Assembly (NCBI RefSeq): GCF_900089495.1
Contig: NZ_LT605203.1
Span: 1,649,060-1,713,059, forward strand
Reading direction: 5' to 3'
DNA length: 64,000 nt
DNA from: Thiomonas sp. X19
GTDB taxonomy: Bacteria; Pseudomonadota; Gammaproteobacteria; Burkholderiales; Burkholderiaceae_C
The position numbers were made by a program, and so were the translations under genes. This document shows, one piece after another, positions 32,046-60,840 of the stretch. The number at the start of each line of letters is the position of its first letter. Within the stretch, counting starts at the first letter, position 1. The notes under the pieces are model-generated. The model had not been told where the DNA came from. It was given only the letters and a program-made list of their open reading frames with translations, and searched no databases.

Positions 32046-32567
32046 TTGCCCGCGCCCGCCACGCGGTATCGGATCGAGGCACTCGGCAAGAACCACGACC
32101 GCGCCGCGATCGACTGCGGCAGCGCCGCACTCGATCGCTACCTGCACCAGCAGGCGCGGCAGGACGCGGACAAGAACGTCGCTGCGCCCTTTGCCATGAC
32201 CGTACCGCCCGCCCTGCGGGTGCTCGGCTACTACACGCTGTCAGCGTCGCACGTGAACGCCAGCGAACTGCCCGACACCCTGGCCAAGAAGCTGCCGCGC
32301 TATCCGCGGCTGCCGGTGATCTTGCTCGGTCGTCTGGCCGTTGACCAAAGCATGAAGGGCAAGGGTCTGGGAGCGTTTCTGCTGCTGGACGCCCTGCGCC
32401 GCAGCCTCGAAGCCGCCGCCAACATCGCGGCGATGGCCGTGCTGGTTGACGCCAAGGACGAAGCGGCGGACGCCTTTTACCGGCATTTCAGCTTTCTGCC
32501 GCTGCAGCATCCGCCGCGCCGCCTGTTCCTGCCCATGAAAACCGTCGCCGGGCTGTTTGATGCTTGA
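32046..32567 (+). CDS. GNAT-family acetyltransferase toxin (TacT-like)
   Basis: A 173-residue GNAT protein. The acetyl-CoA site is VILLGRLAVDQSMKGKGLGAFLLLDAL near residue 100 and the conserved C-terminal Tyr is in DAFYRHFSFLPL. Toxins of this class acetylate the amino acid on charged tRNA and so block translation; partnership with a DUF1778 antitoxin directly upstream supports this. The start is TTG at 32046, adjoining the antitoxin TGA with no gap, which implies translational coupling. The active-site motif differs slightly from the usual Q/RxxGxG spacing but is readable. Confidence 0.88.
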   Translation: MPAPATRYRIEALGKNHDRAAIDCGSAALDRYLHQQARQDADKNVAAPFAMTVPPALRVLGYYTLSASHVNASELPDTLAKKLPRYPRLPVILLGRLAVDQSMKGKGLGAFLLLDALRRSLEAAANIAAMAVLVDAKDEAADAFYRHFSFLPLQHPPRRLFLPMKTVAGLFDA

Positions 32568-49103: not shown

Positions 49104-50330
49104 TCAGTTCCGCAAGGCTTCGTCGAGGAACTCCAGCCAGTGCTGCACCGGCATGGTGGTGCCGGCTTGCAAGTGTTGGATGCAGCCGATGTTGGCGCTG
49201 AGGATGCGCTGCGGCGCCACATGCGCCAGGTGCTTGAGCTTGCGCTCGCGCAACTGTTTCGACAAATCCGCCTGCAGCACGGAGTAGGTGCCGGCCGAGC
49301 CGCAGCACAGGTGGCTCTCCGCCGGCAGGCTGACGCTGAAACCCAGGCCGCGCAGCAGCGCTTCCACCTGCCCGCCCAGGCGCTGGCCATGTTGCAAGGT
49401 GCAGGGCGGGTGCCAGGCCAGGTTTTCGGCCGGCTTGTGCCGGAGCTTGGCGGCGATGTGCTCGCCGTGCGCGGCGAGGAATTCGATCGGGTCGCGTGCG
49501 AGTGCGGAGATGCGTGCGGCCTTGTCGGCATAGGCCGGATCGTGCCGCAGTTCACGGCCGTAGTCCTTCACCAGCACGCCGCAGCCTGAGGCATTGACGA
49601 CGATGGCCTCGACCATGCCACGCTCGACTTGTGGCCACCAGGCGTCGATGTTGCGGCGCATGTCGGCCAGCGCCCCGTCGTGGTCGCTCAGGTGCTGGCG
49701 GATGGCGCCGCAGCAGCCGGCACCTTCGGCCACCAGCGCCTGCACCCCCAGGGCGTCGAGCACGCGGGCGGTGGCGGCGTTGATGTTCGGCGCCATGGCC
49801 GGTTGCACGCAGCCGGCCAGCATCAGCACCTTGCGCGCGTGTTCGCGCGTCGGCCAGGCGCTGGCCGGTGTCGCCGGCGGCACCTTCTCTCTCAGCGATT
49901 TGGGCACCAGCGGCTTGAGCGCCTGGCCGAGCTTCATCGCCGTGCCGAACAGCGGCGAGGTGAGGCCTTCTTTCAGCGCCCAGCGTTTGGCGCGTTCAGC
50001 CATTGGGCGCTGCACCTTGGCGTCCACCACACGGCGGCCGATGTCCACCAACTGGCCGTAGGCCACGCCGGAGGGGCAGGCGGTTTCGCAATTGCGGCAG
50101 GTGAGGCAGCGGTCCAGATGCTGCTGGGTGCTGCGCGTGGGCGCGGCGCCTTCGAGCACCTGCTTGATGAGGTAGATGCGTCCGCGCGGGCCATCCAGTT
50201 CGTCGCCCAGCAACTGGTAGGTGGGGCAGGTGGCGGTGCAAAAACCGCAATGCACGCAGGCGCGCAGGATGCTCTGGGCCTGCTGGCCGTCGGGCGTGCC
50301 GGCGAATTCGGGGGAGAGTCGGGTTTCCAT
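49104..50330 (-). CDS. glcF: Glycolate oxidase iron-sulfur subunit
   Basis: A 408-residue protein with two 4Fe-4S motifs near the N-terminus (ACVHCGFCTATCPTY and CLTCRNCETACPSGV) and two CCG-type domains with LMLAGCVQPAMAPNIN, GAGCCGAIRQHL and CCGSAGTYSVLQ. It transfers electrons from GlcD/GlcE to the quinone pool. The start at 50330 (METRLSPEF) is the family start; the frame is open further upstream through the glcE region. It is the last gene of the glcDEF string, 86 bases after glcE. Confidence 0.95.
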   Translation of the reverse strand: METRLSPEFAGTPDGQQAQSILRACVHCGFCTATCPTYQLLGDELDGPRGRIYLIKQVLEGAAPTRSTQQHLDRCLTCRNCETACPSGVAYGQLVDIGRRVVDAKVQRPMAERAKRWALKEGLTSPLFGTAMKLGQALKPLVPKSLREKVPPATPASAWPTREHARKVLMLAGCVQPAMAPNINAATARVLDALGVQALVAEGAGCCGAIRQHLSDHDGALADMRRNIDAWWPQVERGMVEAIVVNASGCGVLVKDYGRELRHDPAYADKAARISALARDPIEFLAAHGEHIAAKLRHKPAENLAWHPPCTLQHGQRLGGQVEALLRGLGFSVSLPAESHLCCGSAGTYSVLQADLSKQLRERKLKHLAHVAPQRILSANIGCIQHLQAGTTMPVQHWLEFLDEALRN

Positions 50331-50416
50331 GAAGGCAGGAAGGAGGGGTCGGTGAGGCGGAGGCGGTGAGGCGGGGGCGGTGAGACGCGAAGGGCGGGAG
50401 GTCGTCGGCGCTGGGT

Positions 50417-51541
50417 TCAGCCGGCCATCACCGTCGGAAAGATGCCGTGAGGATCGAAGGCGCGCTTGATCTCGCGGTGGATGCGGTCCAGCGGCGGCGC
50501 TGGCGGGGTGAACACCGGCGTGTCCGGGTCGCCGCCGCGAAAGCGCGTGGCGTGGCCACCGGCCCGTGCGGCGGCTTCGCGCATCACGGCGGCGGGCAGT
50601 GCGGTTTTGAGCCAGCGCTGGGCGCCGCCCCATTCGATGAGCAGATCGCCCTGCAGGCGCATGGGCGGTGTGGTGGGCGGCACCGCCAGGCGCCACAGGG
50701 CTTCGCCGGCGGCTCCGGGTTGCGCCCAGGTGGTGGCGAACCAGGGCAGGGTTTGCTCGCGCAGGCCTTGCCACAACGCGGCTGCCGCGGCATCGTCCAC
50801 GCGCTGCCCACCCAGACGGGCGCAGGCGGCGGCCACTGCAGCCTGTGCGCCGCGCAGGCGCAGGTGGAGGTGGTGATCGGAGCCATCGCCGCCACAGCAC
50901 CAGGCGCTGGCGGCGATGGGCAGCGGCTGGCCGCCCCAGAGGTTGACCTGCTCGATCGCGCGCTCCTTGCTCATCTCGAACACCAGCGTGGCGTCGGCCG
51001 GGGCGCGCGGCAGCACCTTGAGCGAGACTTCCAGAATGGCGCCGAGCGAGCCCATCGACCCCACCAGCAGGCGCGAGACGTCGAAGCCGGCGACGTTCTT
51101 CATCACCTGGCCGCCGAAATGCAGCACCTCGGCGCGGCCGCTCAGCAGCACCGCGCCCAGCACATAGTCGCGCACCGCGCCGGCGCCCTGGCGGGCGGGA
51201 CCGGCAAGCCCTGCCGCCACCATGCCGCCCACCGTGGCGCGGGCGCCGGTGTGGGCGAAATGGGGCGGGTCGAACGGCAGGCATTGGCCTTGGGTCGCAA
51301 GCAGGGCTTCCAGCTCGGCCAGCGGTGTGCCGGCGCGGGCGGTGACGACGAGTTCGGTGGGCTCGTAGCTGACGATGCCGGCGTAGGCATGCAGGTCCAG
51401 CATGGTGCCGGTGCGCGCTTGGCGCGAGGCAGGGTTGAGCCAGGATTTGCTGCCGCCGCCGCGTACGGCAAGCGGGGTGTGGTTGGCTGCTGCCTGCCGC
51501 ACCTGCTCTTGCAGGGTGGCGAGTGTGTCGGATGGGTTCAC
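50417..51541 (-). CDS. glcE: Glycolate oxidase FAD-binding subunit
   Basis: A 374-residue FAD-binding protein with the PCMH/VAO fold: TPLAVRGGGSKSWL, PFDPPHFAHTGARATVGGMVAAGLAGP, and VMKNVAGFDVSRLLVGSMGSLGAILEVSLKVLP. It forms the glycolate dehydrogenase complex with GlcD and GlcF, oxidising glycolate to glyoxylate. The first credible start is GTG at 51541 (VNPSDTLATLQEQV); the frame continues upstream into non-coding sequence. It follows glcD after 238 bases. Confidence 0.92.
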   Translation of the reverse strand: MNPSDTLATLQEQVRQAAANHTPLAVRGGGSKSWLNPASRQARTGTMLDLHAYAGIVSYEPTELVVTARAGTPLAELEALLATQGQCLPFDPPHFAHTGARATVGGMVAAGLAGPARQGAGAVRDYVLGAVLLSGRAEVLHFGGQVMKNVAGFDVSRLLVGSMGSLGAILEVSLKVLPRAPADATLVFEMSKERAIEQVNLWGGQPLPIAASAWCCGGDGSDHHLHLRLRGAQAAVAAACARLGGQRVDDAAAAALWQGLREQTLPWFATTWAQPGAAGEALWRLAVPPTTPPMRLQGDLLIEWGGAQRWLKTALPAAVMREAAARAGGHATRFRGGDPDTPVFTPPAPPLDRIHREIKRAFDPHGIFPTVMAG

Positions 51542-51779
51542 GGGTTCAGGCGATGAAAGGGTGGATCGAGTCCTGGGGTTCACGCCCTCCACACGGCGTG
51601 GGGAGGGTTGGGGAAGGGAGGGTTGTTGCGCATCGCGGCTCCCCCTCCCGGCCTCCCCCACCAGTGGGGGAGGTGAGAACAGCGCTGCGCGACGTGCTGG
51701 TTGCCATCACGGTCCCTTTCCGTCCACCGCAGTTTGTGGAGGAGAAACAGAAGCGCTCCGGGCGGGGTGAGTGCGCGGC
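51542..51779 (-). other. glcD-glcE intergenic region with 10-bp-arm hairpin
   Basis: No gene lies between glcD and glcE. CCTCCCCCAC (51652-51661) and GTGGGGGAGG (51664-51673) form a tight hairpin with a two-base loop, surrounded by purine-rich GGGAGGG tracts. Such a stem could attenuate transcription between glcD and glcE or stabilise the glcD message end. Confidence 0.5.
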
Positions 51780-53273
51780 TCAAAAGCGTGGCAGCTCCGG
51801 AAACGCCACGCGCCCGCCGCGCACATGCATCTTGCCGTACTCGGCGCAACGCGCGTGGCTGGGGATGTTCTTGCCCGGGTTGAGGTGCTCGGCGGGGTCG
51901 AAGGCGCGGCGCATGGCCAGGAACTGTTCGAGTTCCTCGGGGCTGAACTGCACGCACATGGAGTTGATTTTTTCCAGCCCCACGCCATGCTCGCCGGTGA
52001 TGGAGCCGCCCATCTCGACGCAGGCCTCCAGGATTTTCGCGCCGAAGGCCTCGGCGCGCTCCAGTTCGCCGGTCTGGTTGGCGTCGAACAAGATCAGCGG
52101 GTGCAAATTGCCGTCGCCGGCATGGAACACGTTGACGCAGCGCAGCGCGAACTCGCGCTCCATGCCCTGGATGGCCAGCAACATGTCGGCGATGCGCTTG
52201 CGCGGGATGGTGCCGTCCATGCAGTAGTAGTCGGGCGAGATGCGGCCCGAGGCGGGGAAGGCGTTCTTGCGCCCGCTCCAGAAGCGCAGGCGCTCGGCCT
52301 CGTCGCGGCTGATGGTCAGGGCCGTGGCGCCGCAGCCTTGCAGCACGGCGAGCATGCGGCCGATTTCCTCCTCCACCTCCTCCGGCGTGCCGTCGGACTC
52401 GCACAGCAGAATGGCGGCGGCGTCCAGGTCGTAGCCGGCGTGGACGAAGGACTCGACCGCCGCCGTCATGGGCTTGTCCATCATCTCCAGCCCGGCCGGG
52501 ATGATGCCGTCGGCGATCAGGCTGGCCACGGCGTCGCCGGCCTTGCGCAGATCGTCGAAGCTGGCCATGATGCAGCGCGCCAGCACAGGCTTCGGAATGA
52601 GCTTGACGGTGACTTCGGTGACGACCATCAGCATGCCCTCGCTGCCGATGACCACGGCCAGAAGATCCGGCCCCGCGCAGTCGCCGGCCAGATTGCCCAC
52701 CGTGATGGGCTCGCCCTCCACGGTGTAGCCGCGCACTTGCAGCACGTTGTGCACGGTGAGGCCGTATTTCAGGCAATGCACGCCGCCGGAGTTCTCCGCC
52801 ACGTTGCCACCGATGGTGCAGGCGATCTGGCTGGAGGGGTCGGGCGCATAGTACAGGCCGTGGGGCGCGGCGGCTTCGGAAATGGCCAGGTTGCGCACGC
52901 CGCATTCCACCGTGGCCGTGCGCGCCAGCTTGTCGATGGCCTTGATGCGGTTGAAGCGCGAGAGCGCCAGCAGCACGCCCTCGGCATGCGGCAGCGCCCC
53001 GCCCGACAGCCCGGTGCCCGCGCCGCGCGCCACCACGGGCACGTGCAGGTGGTGGCAAACGCGCAACACCGCGGCCACCTGGGCCTCGGTCTCCGGCAGC
53101 GCCACGACCATCGGCTTCTGCCGGTAGACGGACAGGCCGTCGCATTCGTAGGGGGTTACATCCTCGCGCTGCCACAGCAGGCAGGAGGCAGGCAGCACGT
53201 CCGTCAGGGCGGCCACCACCTCGGCTTGGCGCCTCGCGCGCGCGGCGAGGTCTTGGGGGATGGGGGCATTCAT
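51780..53273 (-). CDS. glcD: Glycolate oxidase subunit GlcD
   Basis: A 497-residue FAD-linked oxidase. The PCMH FAD domain has VPVVARGAGTGLSGGALPH, DPSSQIACTIGGNVAENSGGVHCLKYG and GSEGMLMVVTEVTVKL. The C-terminal oxidase domain has FHAGDGNLHPLILFD and GGSITGEHGVGLEK. It oxidises glycolate or D-lactate, passing electrons through GlcE/GlcF to quinone. It is the first gene of the minus-strand glcDEF set. A second, shorter GlcD-like protein is encoded at 62289-63698. Confidence 0.95.
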   Translation of the reverse strand: MNAPIPQDLAARARRQAEVVAALTDVLPASCLLWQREDVTPYECDGLSVYRQKPMVVALPETEAQVAAVLRVCHHLHVPVVARGAGTGLSGGALPHAEGVLLALSRFNRIKAIDKLARTATVECGVRNLAISEAAAPHGLYYAPDPSSQIACTIGGNVAENSGGVHCLKYGLTVHNVLQVRGYTVEGEPITVGNLAGDCAGPDLLAVVIGSEGMLMVVTEVTVKLIPKPVLARCIMASFDDLRKAGDAVASLIADGIIPAGLEMMDKPMTAAVESFVHAGYDLDAAAILLCESDGTPEEVEEEIGRMLAVLQGCGATALTISRDEAERLRFWSGRKNAFPASGRISPDYYCMDGTIPRKRIADMLLAIQGMEREFALRCVNVFHAGDGNLHPLILFDANQTGELERAEAFGAKILEACVEMGGSITGEHGVGLEKINSMCVQFSPEELEQFLAMRRAFDPAEHLNPGKNIPSHARCAEYGKMHVRGGRVAFPELPRF

Positions 53274-53556
53274 GGTTGCGGGCTTGTGAACGCAAGTTGG
53301 TTTTATGGATTGTTTCAAACCATAGCGCAGCCCATGTTGCAGTGCATGAGGGACAAACCCGACGCAGGCGTGAACGCCGGGCAAAGCTGTCTTGATCGGG
53401 ATGGGGGTAAAGCGCGTGGCGCGGCGGTGCGGGCGCGGCAAAAACGCCGCATGCATCGCGGGAAGCCCATGCCTGGCGCGAAACAGTTCGATACAAAAAT
53501 CGCCAGCAAACACCGCGTTCGATGCGCTCAAAGCCAGCCGAGCACGATTAGCATCA

Positions 53557-53586
53557 AACTACAAGGGCTTCCCCATACGTCAAGCA
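53557..53586 (+). repeat. Left direct repeat flanking the cassette/IS island
   Basis: AACTACAAGGGCTTCCCC followed by ATACGTCAAGCA. The right partner at 56530-56560 shares the same 18 bases and ends in ATGTCAAGCA. The pair flanks the IS element and the two cassette-like genes, so it marks the island edges or repeats the start of the same cassette type. Confidence 0.7.
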
Positions 53587-53771
53587 AAAGTTGAGGTGTG
53601 GCCCGCGCAGCGGGCCATCTTTCCATCTTGATTCAAAGCCAACCAGCCGGGCATAGGGGACGAAGAGGAACAACAAGGTGCGGACTGGCCAAACTACAAA
53701 CGGTCATTCGTGTGGCATGTCATTTGCCACGGACCCTGATGAGAACCGCACGCGGGGGACCCATTCGTTAG

Positions 53772-53914
53772 TCGGCAATCTGGCCGCCCTTGAGTTCATC
53801 GGTCACGCCCCGCGCAGGTCCAAACCTGTTGTCATCAACGCCTGCCGTCACGCGGCGGTCGAAAGCAATTCTCCTGAAGTTGATGTCATCGTGACACGTT
53901 GTCTGGCCCGGCGC
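53772..53914 (-). ncRNA. Possible bridge/guide RNA region of the IS110 element
   Basis: These 143 bases lie 3' of the transposase gene inside the element. In IS1111-type members of IS110 the non-coding RNA that guides target and donor recognition is encoded at this end. No structure was computed; the call rests on position and family only. Confidence 0.3.
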
Positions 53915-54931
53915 TCAAGACGGCAGCGCGAAGCCTTCGCCCTGACGCAACACCGCCCAGGCCATGCGTGCGTTCTTCGCCGCAATGGCCACCACCGCCT
54001 TCCAGTAGCCGCGTCGTGCCTCCAGGGCCACAGCCCATCGGCTGGTGGCATCGGTCTTGTTCTTGGCCGCCGCCAGCATGGCTCTAGCCCCCAGGATCAG
54101 CAGCATGCGCAAGTCGCTGTCCGCCGCTTTGGTGATGCGCCCCAGCCGGGTCTTGCCTCCCGAGCTGTATTGGCCCGGCGCCAAACCCAGCCAGGCGGCG
54201 AACTGCCGACCGCAATCGAAGTCGTGCCCGTTGCCGATCATGGCCAACATGCAGGTTGCCGTGGTCTCGCCTACACCGCTGAGTTGCATCAGGCGCTTGG
54301 CCCGCACGTCCTCCTTGGCCATGGCCTTGATGTGTTGGTCGTACTGCGTGATGCGCTCGTCCAGTCGGGTGACCTCGCTGAGGAGATCGCCAATGACGAT
54401 GTTGGCGTAACCCGGCAGGTCCTCCAGACAGTCGCAGGCACGCCGGCGCACGGTGGCGGCCTTGAGCGGCAGCACGATGCCGAACTCGCTCAAGCAGCCG
54501 CGAATGCGGTTGAGTGTGGCTGTGCGCTGCTCGACAAAGCCTTGCCGGGCCCGGTGCACCATCAGCAGAGACTGCTGTTCCAGGGTCTTGATCGGCACAA
54601 AGCGCATGTGCGGGCGCCGCACAGCTTCGCAGATCGCCGCAGCATCGGCCGCATCGTTCTTGCCCCGCTTGCCGCTCATGCGGTAGGGCGTGACGAACTT
54701 CGGCGCGATCAGACGCACGGTGTGGCCCGACGCCTGAAACAGCCGGGCCCAGTGGTGCGCGCCCGAGCAGGCTTCCATGCCAATCACGCAAGGCGGCAGC
54801 GCCGCGATCAGCTCATGCAGCTTGTCGCGCGGCACGGCCGGACGCAGTAGTTCGGCTTTGCCAGCCTCGTTGACCCCGTGCACCGCAAAAACAGACTTGG
54901 CAAGATCAATGCCAACGCTCAGAATCACCAT
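53915..54931 (-). CDS. IS110-family (IS1111-type) transposase
   Basis: A 338-residue DEDD recombinase. The N-terminal RuvC-like domain has SVGIDLAKSVFAVHGV (Asp), IGMEACSGAHHWARLF (Glu) and GKNDAADAAAICEAV (Asp-Asp). The C-terminal Transposase_20 domain has QLSGVGETTATCMLAMIGN and SSGGKTRLGRITKAADSDLRMLLI, holding the serine nucleophile region. The HGVNE.GK and MEACSGAHHWAR wording is that of the IS1111 subgroup. The frame is intact. The ATG at 54931 was preferred to one 15 codons upstream. Confidence 0.93.
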   Translation of the reverse strand: MVILSVGIDLAKSVFAVHGVNEAGKAELLRPAVPRDKLHELIAALPPCVIGMEACSGAHHWARLFQASGHTVRLIAPKFVTPYRMSGKRGKNDAADAAAICEAVRRPHMRFVPIKTLEQQSLLMVHRARQGFVEQRTATLNRIRGCLSEFGIVLPLKAATVRRRACDCLEDLPGYANIVIGDLLSEVTRLDERITQYDQHIKAMAKEDVRAKRLMQLSGVGETTATCMLAMIGNGHDFDCGRQFAAWLGLAPGQYSSGGKTRLGRITKAADSDLRMLLILGARAMLAAAKNKTDATSRWAVALEARRGYWKAVVAIAAKNARMAWAVLRQGEGFALPS

Positions 54932-55066
54932 GGTCTTCCCCTTCCGGATGCGTTGATGAGAAACAGCGCTTCCCATCGTGGCACTCAGTTGCCGGTTGCC
55001 GCAAGGCGCCCAGTTCGGGACGGGGAAGTCCCTTTCATTCGTTAGCCGCTAGGGAGGAAGAAAAGG

Positions 55067-55810
55067 ATGGAAGTCACCCTTGCGTCTGTTATTGTCCTTG
55101 GGGCTACAGCAGTTATCCTCAACCTCGGTCGTTTCGCGAACAAGTCGCCATATTCTGTAAGCGTCCTGGAATACATCAATACCCAATCTAAATATCAAGC
55201 TCTACTATTGAGCGTGGCTGGGGTGGTTTTGTTTTGCCTCTATTCCGTGAATGCTGCAAATCTTTGGTCGTTCCTTACACCGGGTAAAATTGCCGCACCT
55301 GCCAAGGGAGTGCCATGGCTGGGAATCTCGGATAATCAGTCATGGGCTAGCGTAGGAGCCAGTCTCTCGTTTTTTATCACTCTCGCTACATCGACCTTCG
55401 TCTATTTGCAGTTCCGTAAATCTGGAGAAGGTCTAAAACAAGCCCTTCCCTATCTGCCGTGGGTTCTACTGTTTTCCCTCACTAATTCATTCTCGGAAGA
55501 GGTGGTTTACCGTCTCGGAATTATTGTTCCGCTCGTTGGTTCCGTTGATACCAACTACATTCTCCTCTTTTCGGCTGCGGCCTTTGGCGCGCCGCACCTT
55601 CGTGGCATGCCTAACGGTATAGTTGGTGCATTAATGGCGGGGTTTCTTGGCTGGTTGCTGGCAAAGTCGATGATCGAAACAAATGGTATTTTTTGGGCAT
55701 GGTTCATCCATTTCTTGCAGGACATCGTTATTTTTTCTGCTTTCGTCATGGCGGCGGCTAACCGTGCATTCGAGAGGGACGCGCCAAAAGCGGCGCGTCC
55801 CTCAATTTGA
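55067..55810 (+). CDS. CPBP-family intramembrane metalloprotease
   Basis: A 247-residue membrane protein with about six to seven helices. The CPBP/Rce1 motifs are present: SFSEEVVYRLG (EExxxR) near residue 145, AAFGAPHLRG (FxxxH) near residue 170 and FIHFLQDIVIF (second His motif) near residue 220. Such proteins process prenylated or bacteriocin-related substrates or give bacteriocin immunity. AGGGAGGAAG gives a strong ribosome site. The last ~16 residues (RAFERDAPKAARPSI) are encoded by the attC site itself, so the C-terminus is a by-product of cassette structure. Confidence 0.85.
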   Translation: MEVTLASVIVLGATAVILNLGRFANKSPYSVSVLEYINTQSKYQALLLSVAGVVLFCLYSVNAANLWSFLTPGKIAAPAKGVPWLGISDNQSWASVGASLSFFITLATSTFVYLQFRKSGEGLKQALPYLPWVLLFSLTNSFSEEVVYRLGIIVPLVGSVDTNYILLFSAAAFGAPHLRGMPNGIVGALMAGFLGWLLAKSMIETNGIFWAWFIHFLQDIVIFSAFVMAAANRAFERDAPKAARPSI

Positions 55811-55819
55811 ACGTCGGAC
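55756..55819 (+). repeat. attC-like recombination site 1
   Basis: GGCTAAC (R'') at 55756-55762, stem GAGGGACGCGCC (55774-55785) with GGCGCGTCCCTC (55792-55803), loop AAAAGC, then TTTGAAC (L') and GTCGGAC (R' of the next cassette) at 55813-55819. The 64-base length and the order R''-L''-stem-L'-R' fit integron attC sites. Confidence 0.7.
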
Positions 55820-55827
55820 ACCATAAG

Positions 55828-56460
55828 ATGCGCCAGTCTCTTGTCCTCAATCCTCCTGTGCATGGACAATGGGCAATAATGAACCCACCAGGCCACGCGA
55901 AACTCGCGTTTGACTTCTTGGCTGTTGATGACAATAAGTCGCCGTACAAAGATGTGAGTCTGCTCCGCCACGTTACCTCCACCATTACAGTCGAGAATAC
56001 TCTGGCATGGGATCAACCTGTTTTCTCGGTCATGGACGGAACTGTAGTCGCGGCAAGCGATGGCGCACCGGATAGGGAGCGCATCAGTATGGTCAGAGAC
56101 TTGTTTCGGCTCATGCTATTTGGTCCGAAAATGGTTCCACCATTCTCAGCCTTGGGAGGAAATTACGTCATTCTGAAATGCGGCGACGTCTACCCGCTCT
56201 ATGCACATCTGAAGAAAGGTTCCGTCTGCGTACGTCCCGGCGACATCGCGCGCAACGGTGATCTTTTGGGCAAAGTTGGAAATTCGGGGTCTTCACTTCA
56301 GCCTCATCTTCATTTCCAAGTCATGAATACCCCAGATCCCTTCCCTCTGTTCAAGAACCTTGTGCCCTTTGCAATCTCCGCCGCAAGCAGACGAAACGAG
56401 AAACAATGGGAGCCAGTCGTCCGCAATGGATTGAAAAATGGCGACCATCTACGGTTGTGA
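55828..56460 (+). CDS. M23-like metallopeptidase, second cassette gene
   Basis: A 210-residue protein with the M23/LytM beta-core: PVFSVMDGTVVAASDG, GGNYVILKCGDVYPLYAHLKKGSV, and VRPGDIARNGDLLGKVGNSGSSLQPHLHFQV with the zinc-binding HxH. The first metal ligand region reads HAKLAFDFLAVDD, a YAFDF-type variant. No signal peptide is seen, so the place of action is unclear. A TTG at 55807 is in frame but lies in the attC; the ATG at 55828 is preferred. Composition is low-GC like its neighbour. Confidence 0.75.
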   Translation: MRQSLVLNPPVHGQWAIMNPPGHAKLAFDFLAVDDNKSPYKDVSLLRHVTSTITVENTLAWDQPVFSVMDGTVVAASDGAPDRERISMVRDLFRLMLFGPKMVPPFSALGGNYVILKCGDVYPLYAHLKKGSVCVRPGDIARNGDLLGKVGNSGSSLQPHLHFQVMNTPDPFPLFKNLVPFAISAASRRNEKQWEPVVRNGLKNGDHLRL

Positions 56461-56472
56461 GGTGCCGATGGT

Positions 56473-56541
56473 GCCCAACCCTACGGTCAACCGGACCTGC
56501 GCGAAAAGCCGCGCAGGTCCGGTTGCTTGAACTACAAGGGC
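56473..56541 (+). repeat. attC-like recombination site 2
   Basis: GCCCAAC (R'') at 56473-56479, stem of 16-base arms (56488-56503 with 56510-56525, opening CAACCGGACC), loop AAAAGC identical to site 1, then TTGAAC (56527-56532) and a degenerate core TACAAGGGC. It closes the M23-like cassette and runs into the right direct repeat. Confidence 0.7.
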
Positions 56542-56560
56542 TTCCCCCCCATGTCAAGCA
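56530..56560 (+). repeat. Right direct repeat flanking the cassette/IS island
   Basis: AACTACAAGGGCTTCCCC then CCCATGTCAAGCA; partner of 53557-53586. It overlaps the end of attC site 2. Confidence 0.7.
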
Positions 56561-56717
56561 ATGCCGGTCCTTGACGGCGCACTGCGCAGCCGTTCATCGA
56601 ATCACTGGACGTTTCTGATTGAGCCCCAACCTGGCGGTGACATCAAGGGTGTGAACGGATAGCTTTCCAGCGGCCGCGCCGATGGGTTGGGTTCAACTAG
56701 CATGGGTGCGCGCCAAC

Positions 56718-57266
56718 ATGAATGCTTATTTATTGCCTCCACGCTGGAACCGTCTCGACACCCTTGAACTGCCGGTCGTCAGGCGCTTCGCTGCGCTGGG
56801 GCGATGGCGCTGGGTGCGGTTCGGCGTCGGCATGGTCAACGTCTTGGCCGACGGTTGGATCTATCTCCCGATCGCGGTGGCGGTCTACCTGCTGGCGCGT
56901 GGGAATGCCTGGCAGATGATCGGCCAAGCGGTTTTGGCGACGCTGCTTGCGCACATCGTGCATGTCCTGCTGAAGCACGGACTGAAACGCCCGCGCCCCT
57001 TCGACCGCGACCCGGCGCTTGCGGCGCGAACGCGTGTACTCGGCCGCTATGCGTTTCCAAGTGGTCATTGCATGACGCTGACCTGCGTCGTTGTGCCGAT
57101 CGTTCACAACGCGCCGTGGCTGTGGCCGCTGGCAACCTTGGGTGTCGCGCTGCTCGCGGTATGCCGGATCATCGCGGGCCACCACTATCCGACCGATGTG
57201 CTGGCCGGAATCTTCATCGGCCTGGGCGTTGCATGGCCGACGGTGGCGTTCGCGTTGATCAAATGA
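56718..57266 (+). CDS. PAP2-family phosphatase
   Basis: A 182-residue membrane protein with the three phosphatidic acid phosphatase motifs: KHGLKRPRPF, AFPSGHCMTLT and CRIIAGHHYPTDVLAGIFIG. It may dephosphorylate undecaprenyl pyrophosphate or other lipid phosphates at the membrane. The ATG at 56718 leaves a short N-terminus; an upstream in-frame ATG at 56682 would add 12 residues. GC content returns to chromosomal level here, so it lies outside the cassette cluster. Confidence 0.87.
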   Translation: MNAYLLPPRWNRLDTLELPVVRRFAALGRWRWVRFGVGMVNVLADGWIYLPIAVAVYLLARGNAWQMIGQAVLATLLAHIVHVLLKHGLKRPRPFDRDPALAARTRVLGRYAFPSGHCMTLTCVVVPIVHNAPWLWPLATLGVALLAVCRIIAGHHYPTDVLAGIFIGLGVAWPTVAFALIK

Positions 57267-57534
57267 GTGCCGCGGGCATCGCGCGGGACGGGTGGCTGCG
57301 ATTCGGCCACGCCAAAGTGAGGCAGAACCAAGAAAGTGCGATGCGGCCGCCGGCCCGAAGGGCTGTAAGCCGTAGTGCCTGACATGGCGACGGCGACGAT
57401 GCGCGAATAGGACACCGTGCGCCGGCGGATTCGCCATGGTTCAGCCCGACGTCACGGTCCTTTCTGGATGGGCGACGATGGACATCACATTCAAGTTGTG
57501 CGATGTTCGTTCCCGTCCAGCCAGGGAGCCACCG

Positions 57535-58344
57535 ATGAAAATCATGCCTGCGCCCAGTCGTCGCAACGCGGCAGCGCATCCTTGCGAGCAGTGCTTCCAG
57601 AGCCGGTTCTGTCTGCCCATCGCACTGCCTCAAGATGAATCGGCATGCATGCGCGACATCATGCAAGCCACGGTGCGCATGCACAAGGGCGAGGCGCTGT
57701 TCAAGGCGGGCCAGCCGGTCAACAAACTCTACTCGGTGCATGCGGGCTCGTTCAAGCCGGTGGTCAGCAGCCCCGATGGACGCCAACAGATCGTTGGCTT
57801 TCACGTCGCGGGAGAGTTGATGGGGCTGGAGAGCTTCGCCATGAAAACCTTCGCGACCGATGGCGTGGCGCTGGAAGACAGCGAGGCCTGCGAAATCGAT
57901 GTCGGCATCCTGGAACGGCACGCCGCCTCATCGCCGGCCCTGCAGCACCAGATTCATCGCCTGATCGGCAACCGGCTGGCGAACGCCCAGCAAAACCAGT
58001 TCGCCCTGGGCAGCATGCATGCCGAGGAGCGGCTGGTGCGCTTCCTTCTCGATCTGTCCCAACGCTACAGGGCGCGCGGGCTCTCGCCCGATGCCTTCGT
58101 GTTGAGCATGACGCGGCAAGACATCGCCAGCTATCTGGGTTTGAAGCTGGAGACGGTCAGCAGGTTGATGACGCACCTCCATCGCGATGGGCTCCTGGAG
58201 GTGATGCAGCGCCAGGTCCGCATCGCCAACCGCGACGGCCTGACCGCTCTGCTGACGCCGCCGGAGCATGAACGGACTGCAAGGCAGGCTCCACGGTGCC
58301 ATTTGTCGGGCTTTGGGACGCGAAATTCCACCGCGCATGGTTGA
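57535..58344 (+). CDS. FNR-type Crp-family transcriptional regulator
   Basis: A 269-residue regulator. The N-terminus has HPCEQCFQSRFC (Cys17, Cys20, Cys26) and a central Cys near residue 119 (DSEACEIDV), together the four ligands of an oxygen-labile 4Fe-4S cluster as in FNR. A cyclic-nucleotide-type barrel (LFKAGQPVNKLYSVHAGSFK) and the HTH MTRQDIASYLGLKLETVSRLMTHL follow, with the FNR-style E..SR recognition helix. It probably switches genes under low oxygen. AGGGAG lies just upstream of the ATG. The C-terminal ~20 residues are extra. Confidence 0.88.
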   Translation: MKIMPAPSRRNAAAHPCEQCFQSRFCLPIALPQDESACMRDIMQATVRMHKGEALFKAGQPVNKLYSVHAGSFKPVVSSPDGRQQIVGFHVAGELMGLESFAMKTFATDGVALEDSEACEIDVGILERHAASSPALQHQIHRLIGNRLANAQQNQFALGSMHAEERLVRFLLDLSQRYRARGLSPDAFVLSMTRQDIASYLGLKLETVSRLMTHLHRDGLLEVMQRQVRIANRDGLTALLTPPEHERTARQAPRCHLSGFGTRNSTAHG

Positions 58345-58353
58345 TGCGGCCTC

Positions 58354-58435
58354 TCAAGGAAACGCAGGGCCGCCCCAAGTTTCCTTGACCCCTACGTGGG
58401 GCGTGATCGGCGAGCCGACCCTGGGGGCGCTCAAA
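58354..58435. repeat. Dispersed intergenic palindromic repeat, copy B
   Basis: TCAAGGAAAC (58354-58363) and GTTTCCTTGA (58379-58388) flank the loop GCAGGGCCGCCCCAA, identical to copy A. CCCTGGGGGCGCTCA follows at the right. It starts ten bases after the FNR-type gene and could act as its terminator. Confidence 0.7.
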
Positions 58436-58456
58436 GAGGCAGGGCACCCGCTAAAG

Positions 58457-58474
58457 ACTGTATATAAAAACAGT
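58457..58474 (+). promoter_or_regulatory. LexA (SOS) box upstream of Y-family polymerase
   Basis: ACTGTATATAAAAACAGT matches the LexA consensus CTGT-N8-ACAG with an AT-rich centre. It overlaps a plausible -10 (TATAAA) and lies 78 bases before the polymerase ATG. The gene should therefore be repressed by LexA and induced by DNA damage. Confidence 0.75.
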
Positions 58475-58551
58475 TAACATGGCCTTCCGGCTGCTCAACG
58501 CCACGCCCATGGCGGGCCGTGGCAGGTGCGCCGGGGTTTGGGGTGCTGGCC

Positions 58552-59778
58552 ATGTTGCGTTGTCTGCTCGTCGATTTCAATGCCTACTTCGCCTCGGTGG
58601 AGCAGCAGGCGCGGCCGGAGCTGCGCGGGCGGCCGGTGGGGGTGGTGCCGATGATGGCCGACACCACCTGCTGCATCGCCGCCAGCTACGAGGCCAAGGC
58701 CTTCGGCGTGAAGACCGGCACCCAGGTGACCGAGGCGCGCAAGCTCTGCCCCGGCATGGTGTTCGTCGAGGCGCGGCATGCGCTGTACGTGGAGTTCCAC
58801 CACCGCGCCATCGCCGCGGTGGACCGGGTGGCGCCGGTGGAGCGGGTGCTGTCCATCGACGAGATGGCCTGCGGCCTGCCCATGGGCTGGAGCAGCCGCG
58901 AGCGCGCCACCGCGCTGGCGCTGCGCATCAAGGCCGGGCTGCGCGAGGCGCTGGGTGAATGCCTGCGCGTGTCGGTGGGCATTGCGCCCAATGTATTCCT
59001 GGCGAAACAGGCGTCGAACCTGCAAAAGCCCGACGGCCTGGTGGTGCTGGACGACACCGACCTGCCCGGCCCGCTGTTGCGCATGAAGCTCGACGACCTC
59101 ACCGGCATCAACCGCGGCATGCTGGCGCGGCTGCACGCGCATGGGCTGACCACGGTGGCGCAGCTGTGGCGCGCGCGGCGCGAGCAACTCCACACCATCT
59201 GGGGCGGTGTCGGTGGCGACGACTTCCACGACCAGCTCCACGGCCTGCCGGTGCAACGCCTGGCCAGCCCGCGCCGCACCCTGAGCCACAGCCACGTGCT
59301 GCCACCCGAGCAGCGCAACCGCGACGACGCCTGCGCCGTGCTCGACCGACTGACGCAAAAAGCCGCCATGCGCCTGCGCCGCGAAGGCCTGGTGGCCGGC
59401 GCCATGAGCGTGGGCCTGCGCTGCGCCGCCCGCGGCCAGGCATCGCAGCGTTGGGAACAGGCCGCACGCATGGCGCACACGCAGGACACCCAGACCCTGC
59501 TGCACACCCTGGCCGCGCTCTGGGCGGGTTTGCCGCCGCGGCTGCCGCCGCCATTCAAGGTCGGCATGGTGCTGCACGACTTGCTGCCGCTGGCGCAAAG
59601 CAGCGCCGGCCTGTTCGATGACGACAGCCGCCGCAGCGGCCTGTGGCAGGCGGTGGATGCGCTGAACCTGCGCTATGGCAAGCACACCGTCTATTGCGGC
59701 AGCGCCCACCGCGCCCGCGACAGCGCGCCCATGCGCATCGCCTTCAACCGCATTCCCGACCTCGGCACCGAGGCGTGA
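58552..59778 (+). CDS. Y-family translesion DNA polymerase (ImpB/DinB type)
   Basis: A 408-residue lesion-bypass polymerase. The first catalytic motif is LVDFNAYFASVEQQ, the second VLSIDEM with the paired acidic residues. CCIAASYEAKAFGVKTG and GIAPNVFLAKQASNLQKPDGL are also typical. The little-finger domain reads LSHSHVLPPEQRN. It is not long enough for a UmuC and differs from standard DinB. In-frame GTG codons lie upstream (58519), but the ATG at 58552 begins the conserved palm. The upstream LexA box supports an SOS role. Confidence 0.9.
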   Translation: MLRCLLVDFNAYFASVEQQARPELRGRPVGVVPMMADTTCCIAASYEAKAFGVKTGTQVTEARKLCPGMVFVEARHALYVEFHHRAIAAVDRVAPVERVLSIDEMACGLPMGWSSRERATALALRIKAGLREALGECLRVSVGIAPNVFLAKQASNLQKPDGLVVLDDTDLPGPLLRMKLDDLTGINRGMLARLHAHGLTTVAQLWRARREQLHTIWGGVGGDDFHDQLHGLPVQRLASPRRTLSHSHVLPPEQRNRDDACAVLDRLTQKAAMRLRREGLVAGAMSVGLRCAARGQASQRWEQAARMAHTQDTQTLLHTLAALWAGLPPRLPPPFKVGMVLHDLLPLAQSSAGLFDDDSRRSGLWQAVDALNLRYGKHTVYCGSAHRARDSAPMRIAFNRIPDLGTEA

Positions 59779-59884
59779 GCCCTGTGGATGCCGGGGGCGC
59801 CATGGCATCGCCCTGACAGGCCTTCGACGGACATCCGCCAACACCGCGAGGCAAACGTCCTGCCCAACTCTCCGCTCCCAAGGC

Positions 59885-59955
59885 AACGAAGGGCGGTTCC
59901 CGAGTTTTCTTGACCCCTCCCCGGGGGGGCCGCTTGCGGGCTGCTGGGGGCGCTA
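59885..59955. repeat. Dispersed intergenic palindromic repeat, copy C (partial)
   Basis: CGAGTTTTCTTGACCCCTCCCCGGGGGGGCC and CTGCTGGGGGCGCTATGG resemble the right halves of copies A and B; the left arm is diverged. It lies between the convergent polymerase and sterol-desaturase-like genes, again a terminator-like position. Confidence 0.5.
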
Positions 59956-60840
59956 TGGAGGGGGCTGCATGGTCGTGCCGATGCTGTTCGATCGTGGCAA
60001 AGGCGCAGACTCCTGATCCGCCAGCGCCCGGTCGGGTGGACCGAACAGTTGCACCAGCCGCTGGCGCAGCCCGCGTGCGCGTGCAGCGTCGCGCAGCATG
60101 GCGATCCATTCGTGAAAGGTGAGGGTGATGGGGTTATGGCTGCGGATCGGATGGACGATGCCGTAGACGCAGGGATGGGCCGGATCTTCCGGCGTGAAGC
60201 TGCCGAACAGCTTGTCCCACACGATGAACACGCCCGCGTAGTTGCGGTCGAGGTATTGCGGGTTGCGGGCGTGGTGCACGCGGTGGTGCGAAGGGGTGTT
60301 GAACACATGCTCCAGCCAGCCGAGCTGGCCCACCGCCTCGGTGTGGACGAAGAACTGGAAGGCCAGATTGATGGCGACCACGGCGACGATGTGCGCAGGG
60401 GCGAAGCCGATCCACGCCAGCGGCAGCCAGAACAGCCACATGCCCGAGATGGGGTAGGCGAGGCTCTGGCGGAACGCGGTGGAGAGGTTGAGCCGCTCCG
60501 ACGAATGGTGAGTGACATGCGAGGCCCACAGCCAGCGCACGCGGTGGCTGGTGCGGTGAAACCAATAGTAGAAAAAGTCCTGGGCGACGACGAGCAAAAC
60601 CACACTCCACCAGGTGGCGGGAATGTTGAACAGACGATGCTGCCAGAGCCCGACGAACAGGCCGAAGGTGAGCAGCCAGGCCACCGCGTCCGAGGCCTGG
60701 TGCATCAGCGCCAGGGCGGCGTTGGAGGTGGTGTCCGCCCAGGTGTAGTTGCTGCGGCCCATGCGCCTGAAATGCCAGGCTTCCCAGGCGATGAAGCCGA
60801 GGAAGACCGGGCCGAGCAAGAGCAGGATGGGGTTGTCCAT
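59953..60840 (-). CDS. Sterol desaturase/fatty acid hydroxylase superfamily protein
   Basis: A 295-residue membrane di-iron protein with helices and the histidine boxes HRTSH (near residue 95), HVTHHS and NTPSHHRVHHARN. It probably hydroxylates or desaturates a lipid, but the substrate is not predictable. The start at 60840 begins MDNPILLLLGPVFLGFIAWEAWHF. It is downstream of an SRPBCC-like gene on the same strand (18-base gap). Confidence 0.88.
   Translation of the reverse strand: MDNPILLLLGPVFLGFIAWEAWHFRRMGRSNYTWADTTSNAALALMHQASDAVAWLLTFGLFVGLWQHRLFNIPATWWSVVLLVVAQDFFYYWFHRTSHRVRWLWASHVTHHSSERLNLSTAFRQSLAYPISGMWLFWLPLAWIGFAPAHIVAVVAINLAFQFFVHTEAVGQLGWLEHVFNTPSHHRVHHARNPQYLDRNYAGVFIVWDKLFGSFTPEDPAHPCVYGIVHPIRSHNPITLTFHEWIAMLRDAARARGLRQRLVQLFGPPDRALADQESAPLPRSNSIGTTMQPPP

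Follow-up and report, generated by a model that had tools for sequence, protein, structure and literature searches.

Between glcD and a PAP2 gene in the chromosome of Thiomonas sp. X19 sit two genuine integron gene cassettes, which very probably form a CALIN capped by insertion sequence (IS) DNA. The window, that is, the whole 64-kb stretch of DNA that was analysed, holds the following features at this place:

53560-55040, minus strand: IS1111-type (IS110 family) element; right end at 53560, left end adjoining GTTAGCC
53560-53914, minus strand: non-coding region of the IS, presumed source of a seeker RNA from its position 3' of the transposase gene and its conserved blocks
53915-54976, minus strand: IS110-family transposase gene, 353 aa (PF02371 86 bits, PF01548 75.9 bits, NF033542 349.6 bits with a cut-off of 140)
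55041-55047, plus strand: core site GTTAGCC, start of cassette 1, read from the sequence
55067-55810, plus strand: CPBP (Rce1-like) protease gene of cassette 1 (PF02517 39 bits, cut-off 22.4)
55756-55819, plus strand: attC1, with 3' core GTCGGAC (covariance model R1, 43.4 bits, E 2e-8)
55828-56460, plus strand: M23-type peptidase gene of cassette 2 (PF01551 53.1 bits, cut-off 28.7; match to the M23 fold)
56473-56532, plus strand: attC2 minus its 3' core (covariance model R1, 26 bits, E 3.7e-4 over 56473-56541)
56533-56563, minus strand: remnant (right end), at least 31 bases, of a second copy of the same IS type, found by a small local search

The CPBP reading frame begins with an ATG at 55067 and ends with a stop codon at 55808-55810, and the attC1 hairpin, which opens with GGCTAAC at 55756, sits within its 3' end; attC2 opens with GCCCAAC at 56473. 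The original prediction had placed GTTAGCC 20 bases before the CPBP start and GGCTAAC at the opening of the trailing hairpin, followed by a second attC-like site with the same AAAAGC loop and 16-base arms, all in DNA of lower GC than its surroundings, and each of these points was confirmed. The stem of attC1 is formed by GAGGGACGCGCC and GGCGCGTCCCTC (12 bp) and that of attC2 by CAACCGGACCTGCGCG and CGCGCAGGTCCGGTTG (16 bp), with AAAAGC as the loop of both, while GC stands at 0.496 in cassette 1 and 0.520 in cassette 2, compared with 0.632 in the IS and 0.668 in the whole window. The final residues of the CPBP protein (ANRAFERDAPKAARPSI) are encoded by the attC1 hairpin (window 55756-55810), and similar C-terminal ends are present in several CPBP relatives (alignment A1).

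Both sites were assessed by folding and with a covariance model. In bottom-strand folds none of 200 dinucleotide shuffles equalled either site (z -4.4 for attC1 and -7.0 for attC2). Model R1 was trained on ten attC sites, none out of the window, comprising five from the same genome, two from locus L063 and one each from L070, L058 and L050; the L070 site trails a CPBP relative, which gives the model a partial dependence with attC1. Over the 64-kb window, on both strands and at E ≤ 10, R1 returned two matches only, 55756-55819 and 56473-56541, exactly as predicted and with starts spaced 717 bases, and in an unfiltered scan of 53000-57000 the next best score was 7.8 bits. The 3' core of attC1 has C in place of the second T of GTT. 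At the second site the predicted coordinates are those of the model match, but their last part, 56533-56541, is IS sequence rather than attC, including the GGGC at 56538-56541 to which R1 was matched; because the IS right end stands at 56533, attC2 is without its 3' core. No relevant match was obtained from Rfam over 50001-60000 (E ≤ 1), and two attC finders based on regular expressions, being too strict, missed both window sites; the covariance model was used instead. A third attC left of the IS was also considered and gave no match in the unfiltered R1 scan. The rejoined left flank folds modestly, with 12 of 300 mononucleotide shuffles as good, and a decayed third attC there is not supported; for comparison, an IS-split attC at C3:3034129 still reaches 27.4 bits under R1 with its core absent.

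That the two sites are no more than fortuitous hairpins, or terminators that follow ordinary genes of low GC, with no integron origin, is hardly credible. Both are indeed strong hairpins, and M23 peptidases are common, their profile matching 365 of the 399 genomes of the order; however, covariance matches occur at only these two places in 64 kb, and the same genes are flanked by attC, with homologous leaders, in other bacteria. CPBP relatives number 566 at E ≤ 0.001, and among the 120 of them that were listed many lie on short contigs; a genome scan kept 80 of 140 loci, R1 being run on the first 15 (L063-L077). Four of these 15 (L063, L065, L066 and L070) have an attC directly 3' of the CPBP gene at E<1e-3, L077 has a weak downstream match (E 0.19) and ten have none; in L072 a match lies directly 5' of the gene. 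R1 was trained on the matches at L063:2910 and L070, but not on those that follow the gene in L063, L065 and L066. The relative in L063 (82% identity) has attC on both sides of the gene and shares the leader GTTAGCCGCTA(C/G)GGAG with cassette 1 of the window. For the M23 gene 349 relatives were found, and in the 399 genomes matches below E 1e-100 are limited, besides its own genome (G000), to G195 and G045. The G195 locus (L144, 77% identity) contains five attC matches in one direction (E 7.6e-5 to 0.0025), with the leader GTTAGGCACCATAAG compared with GTCGGACACCATAAG in the window, and the G045 locus (L145) has no attC match. With flanks of 1.5-3 kb compared, no locus outside their own genome was found to contain both genes.

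The original prediction was right about a cassette array, but missed the IS110-family transposase at the first core and the IS remnant at the last. The exact ends of the IS were assigned by the published rule for IS1111-type elements, which sets them 7 bases and 3 bases beyond the inverted repeats (PMC11187229). The subterminal inverted repeats are AAGGGACTTCCCC on the left and AAGGGCTTCCCC on the right, alike except for one inserted base, and 355 bases of non-coding DNA lie downstream of the transposase gene versus about 64 upstream. Right-end and non-coding blocks are conserved in 13 of 199 genomes searched, own genome included, and the closest named plasmid copies, from Polaromonas and Aquabacterium, show about 72-74% identity. 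The segment 53550-53785, once regarded as a possible attI unit, was discarded on an alignment of 18 stretches, window included, in which it appears as the IS right end and non-coding region. The left-end motif is present in eight of 11 related loci with GTT next in each, and GTTA is constant after the left end in all eight copies; the division between IS and target therefore rests on the published rule, by which the target is GCATCAAAC directly followed by GTTAGCC. The left end falls precisely on the boundary of the first core site, which the IS separates from its left half. At the right end (53556-53583) an outward TTGACG-N16-TAGTTT, directed toward glcD, is a possible promoter that falls below the promoter-scan threshold.

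On the opposite side of the array the remnant at 56533 has the orientation of the full IS, and in the small local search it matched the window's own IS end at 87.5% over 32 bases (E 0.003) and L013 at 87.9% over 33 (E 0.001). For a longer IS relic on the right, the best extra similarity among 16 copies was 39, equal to the shuffle maximum of 39. Among 18 loci with related IS copies, the right end abuts an attC match (E ≤ 0.035) in six; two further loci have a weak match (E 0.29 in one; E 2.6, at a distance of 52 bases, in the other), and ten have none. The left flank in the window belongs to these ten, as do L053, which has a match to attI, and L039, whose flank resembles attI by eye. In L013/L181 (C3:3033907-3034193) an IS relic of this type is joined at CATTCGTTAG to the leader of a gene that by eye resembles one for a kef-type transporter, and a core-less attC lies on its other side; the arrangement resembles a deletion between two CATTCGTTAG repeats of the IS.

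Right ends of one IS type, in one orientation, border the array on both sides, and left of the IS there is neither attC nor attI, a picture that would fit a composite unit in which two IS1111-type copies carried the cassettes to a chromosomal target made of AAAC and GTT. In the laboratory, elements of this kind have been shown to move cargo placed between IS ends (PMC11187229). Even so this origin is decidedly improbable: the right copy is only a scrap that lacks its outer left end, the arrangement was seen just once, and two independent core-site insertions, which are common, give the same picture.

With regards to the integrase, the original description of an array without one is true locally, but not for the chromosome, which encodes a full-length IntI (334 aa, 434 bits, over the cut-off and with no inner stop) at C3:3999275-4000231, about 2.3 Mb from the array. 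TIGR02249 gave 20 matches in the genome, none inside the window, and tblastn of IntI over 51000-60000 gave nothing better than E 2.2; in control genomes the integrase model was over the cut-off in 0 of 14, with matches below it in all 14. IntI is adjoined by an attI-like sequence and three attC sites. By eye, the second cassette beside it (L009, 11934-13316) is apparently split by a 460-aa transposase-like ORF of another kind. Two pieces at C3:4289526-4290110 match the integron-integrase model at 70.9 and 90.5 bits, below the cut-off, and one of them contains an in-frame TAG. Run on the whole genome, with 150 of 9175 first-look candidates scored, R1 found ten attC at six loci at E<0.03, five of them training sites, and two extra matches (E 4.8 and 6.3) were dropped as chance. 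Three arrays without a nearby integrase have attI-like segments on their left:

L173, C3:3722583: attI-like, 91% over 64 bases
L174, C3:1108611: attI-like, 75% over 207 bases
L177, C3:2334380: attI-like, 83% over 66 bases

At L174 the attI likeness extends, by eye, into an apparent decayed intI start, and the genome seems to have once held several integron platforms. The segments favour decay of whole integrons at these three arrays, and together with broken integrase genes within the genus (G006 and G026) they lend some support to the same history in the window, namely that a complete integron formerly stood at this locus and lost intI and attI by deletion, leaving two cassettes. Such a history is nevertheless rather unlikely here. 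No attI match occurs near the array, the IntI search of the surrounding sequence came to the null result given above, and intI with attI, the mark of a complete integron, is not found beside the array; the sole attI match of the window, 24 bases at 32135 (E 0.061), was dropped as too far away.

A further point against decay in place comes from G011, a genome of the same genus and the nearest relative having the syntenic locus, where glcD and PAP2 lie 297 bases apart with no array, no attC and no attI match. Homology between the window and G011 ends near 53422 and restarts near 56669; the G011 intergenic sequence scores 19 with the left flank (shuffle maximum 21) and a marginal 24 against 23 with the right, and lacking a useful alignment to the flanks, the empty site is unreadable. 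Among 60 relatives searched, only G011 matched the PAP2 region over a long stretch. None of 27 other genus genomes yielded the array's coding DNA; five of them gave hairpin-sized matches. With 150 candidates scored per genome, 13 of 28 genus genomes have attC matches at E ≤ 0.01, and IntI is over the cut-off in 3 of 28.

The preferred origin is integrase-mediated insertion of the cassettes at a non-attI, attG-like site, an inferred route to which we would give an even chance. Cassette circles would have been joined to the chromosome by an integron integrase, either the IntI encoded 2.3 Mb away or an earlier one, and the joining would have taken place at a secondary site other than attI. An attC-targeting IS1111-type element, guided by its own non-coding RNA, would have entered the junction core between AAAC and GTTAGCC, and a second copy may have entered attC2 at its 3' core before decaying to the right-end scrap seen now. 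Since one core is interrupted, another is missing and the third reads GTC for GTT, the cassettes can probably no longer move, as excision of a single cassette would be blocked when none keeps two intact flanking sites. This origin is favoured by the covariance matches at both sites, the ten attC at six loci of the genome, the IntI without inner stop, the low GC, the attC-flanked relatives, the array-free G011 locus, the absence of the array's coding DNA from the 27 other genus genomes, the lack of attI near the array and of attC left of the IS, and the related IS copies that abut attC or attI. Against it stand the unreadable empty site in G011, which makes plain chromosome at the left junction only a supposition, the three other arrays with attI-like segments, the modest fold of the rejoined left flank, which might be a decayed third attC, the 11 of 15 CPBP loci without attC at E<1e-3 directly downstream, and the constant GTTA after the IS left end, which makes the target bases depend on the end rule.

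The CALIN assignment made in the original prediction is upheld by the covariance matches, low GC, array-free relative locus and occurrence of both genes as cassettes elsewhere. As in other CALINs, at least two attC sites lie close together with no integron integrase nearby, in a genome with an integron elsewhere; unlike CALINs generally, both outer cores touch IS1111-type sequence, one complete and one a scrap. The IntegronFinder 2 dataset contains 2,961 CALINs (PMC9024848), and CALINs away from the main integron are reported in about half of Xanthomonas genomes (PMC12444791). The element itself resembles the IS1111-attC group, whose name appears in the reference lists of two papers (PMC11187229; PMC12444791), in its IS110-family transposase, the long non-coding region 3' of it and insertion at an attC core, and target choice by a seeker RNA is presumed here. 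Members of that group have perfect or nearly perfect subterminal inverted repeats of 11-13 bp; the repeats of this IS differ from each other by one inserted base, and its left flank is neither attC nor attI. With attG insertion the array shares cassettes away from attI and an integrase encoded in trans, but it offers no readable empty site. Loot et al. 2024 reportedly dealt with attG insertion of cassettes. Such insertion is also described in PMC12901181 and PMC12444791. As CALINs and attC-targeting IS1111 elements are both already known, the capped ends are the main peculiarity here, and, judging by titles and abstract starts, the literature search returned no paper on this locus.

Both cassette enzymes look intact, since they keep invariant residues that we take to be their catalytic motifs: EE144-145xxxR149, F173xxxH177 and H215xxxD219 in 22 of 22 aligned CPBP sequences, and H23, D29, H160 and H162 in 23 of 23 aligned M23 sequences. 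The best of five predicted M23 models has a pLDDT of 88.9 (the other four 55-74) and matches M23 structures, best Csd1-Csd2 (E 7.6e-7, TM 0.44 by query). The CPBP model (pLDDT 87.8) found no structure match at E ≤ 0.001, the best being SagB-SpdC at E 0.2, and no NCBIfam model reaches its cut-off for either protein. No CPBP match occurs among 72,556 plasmid records at E ≤ 1e-5, and M23 matches occur on 70 plasmids, every one below 60% identity. The promoter scan gave one sigma-70-like site compared with 1.4 expected from shuffles, none above chance. A role in bacteriocin or cell-wall conflict, as initially proposed, found no support: PADLOC gave no match at E ≤ 0.001, leaving a phage-defence role without support, and in the loci compared the two genes were not found together outside their own genome. 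Their role in the cell may, at a guess, be accessory membrane and cell-wall proteolysis, with little expression at this locus.

The array offers a clear case of cassettes stranded in a chromosome whose integrase gene still appears to be full-length, and the IS sequence found at each outer core points to a way in which stray cassettes may become fixed. If the composite origin were true, the cassettes would have spread here by a seeker-RNA transposase, not by an integron integrase. Furthermore, several distant bacteria carry genes of these CPBP and M23 subfamilies in cassettes.
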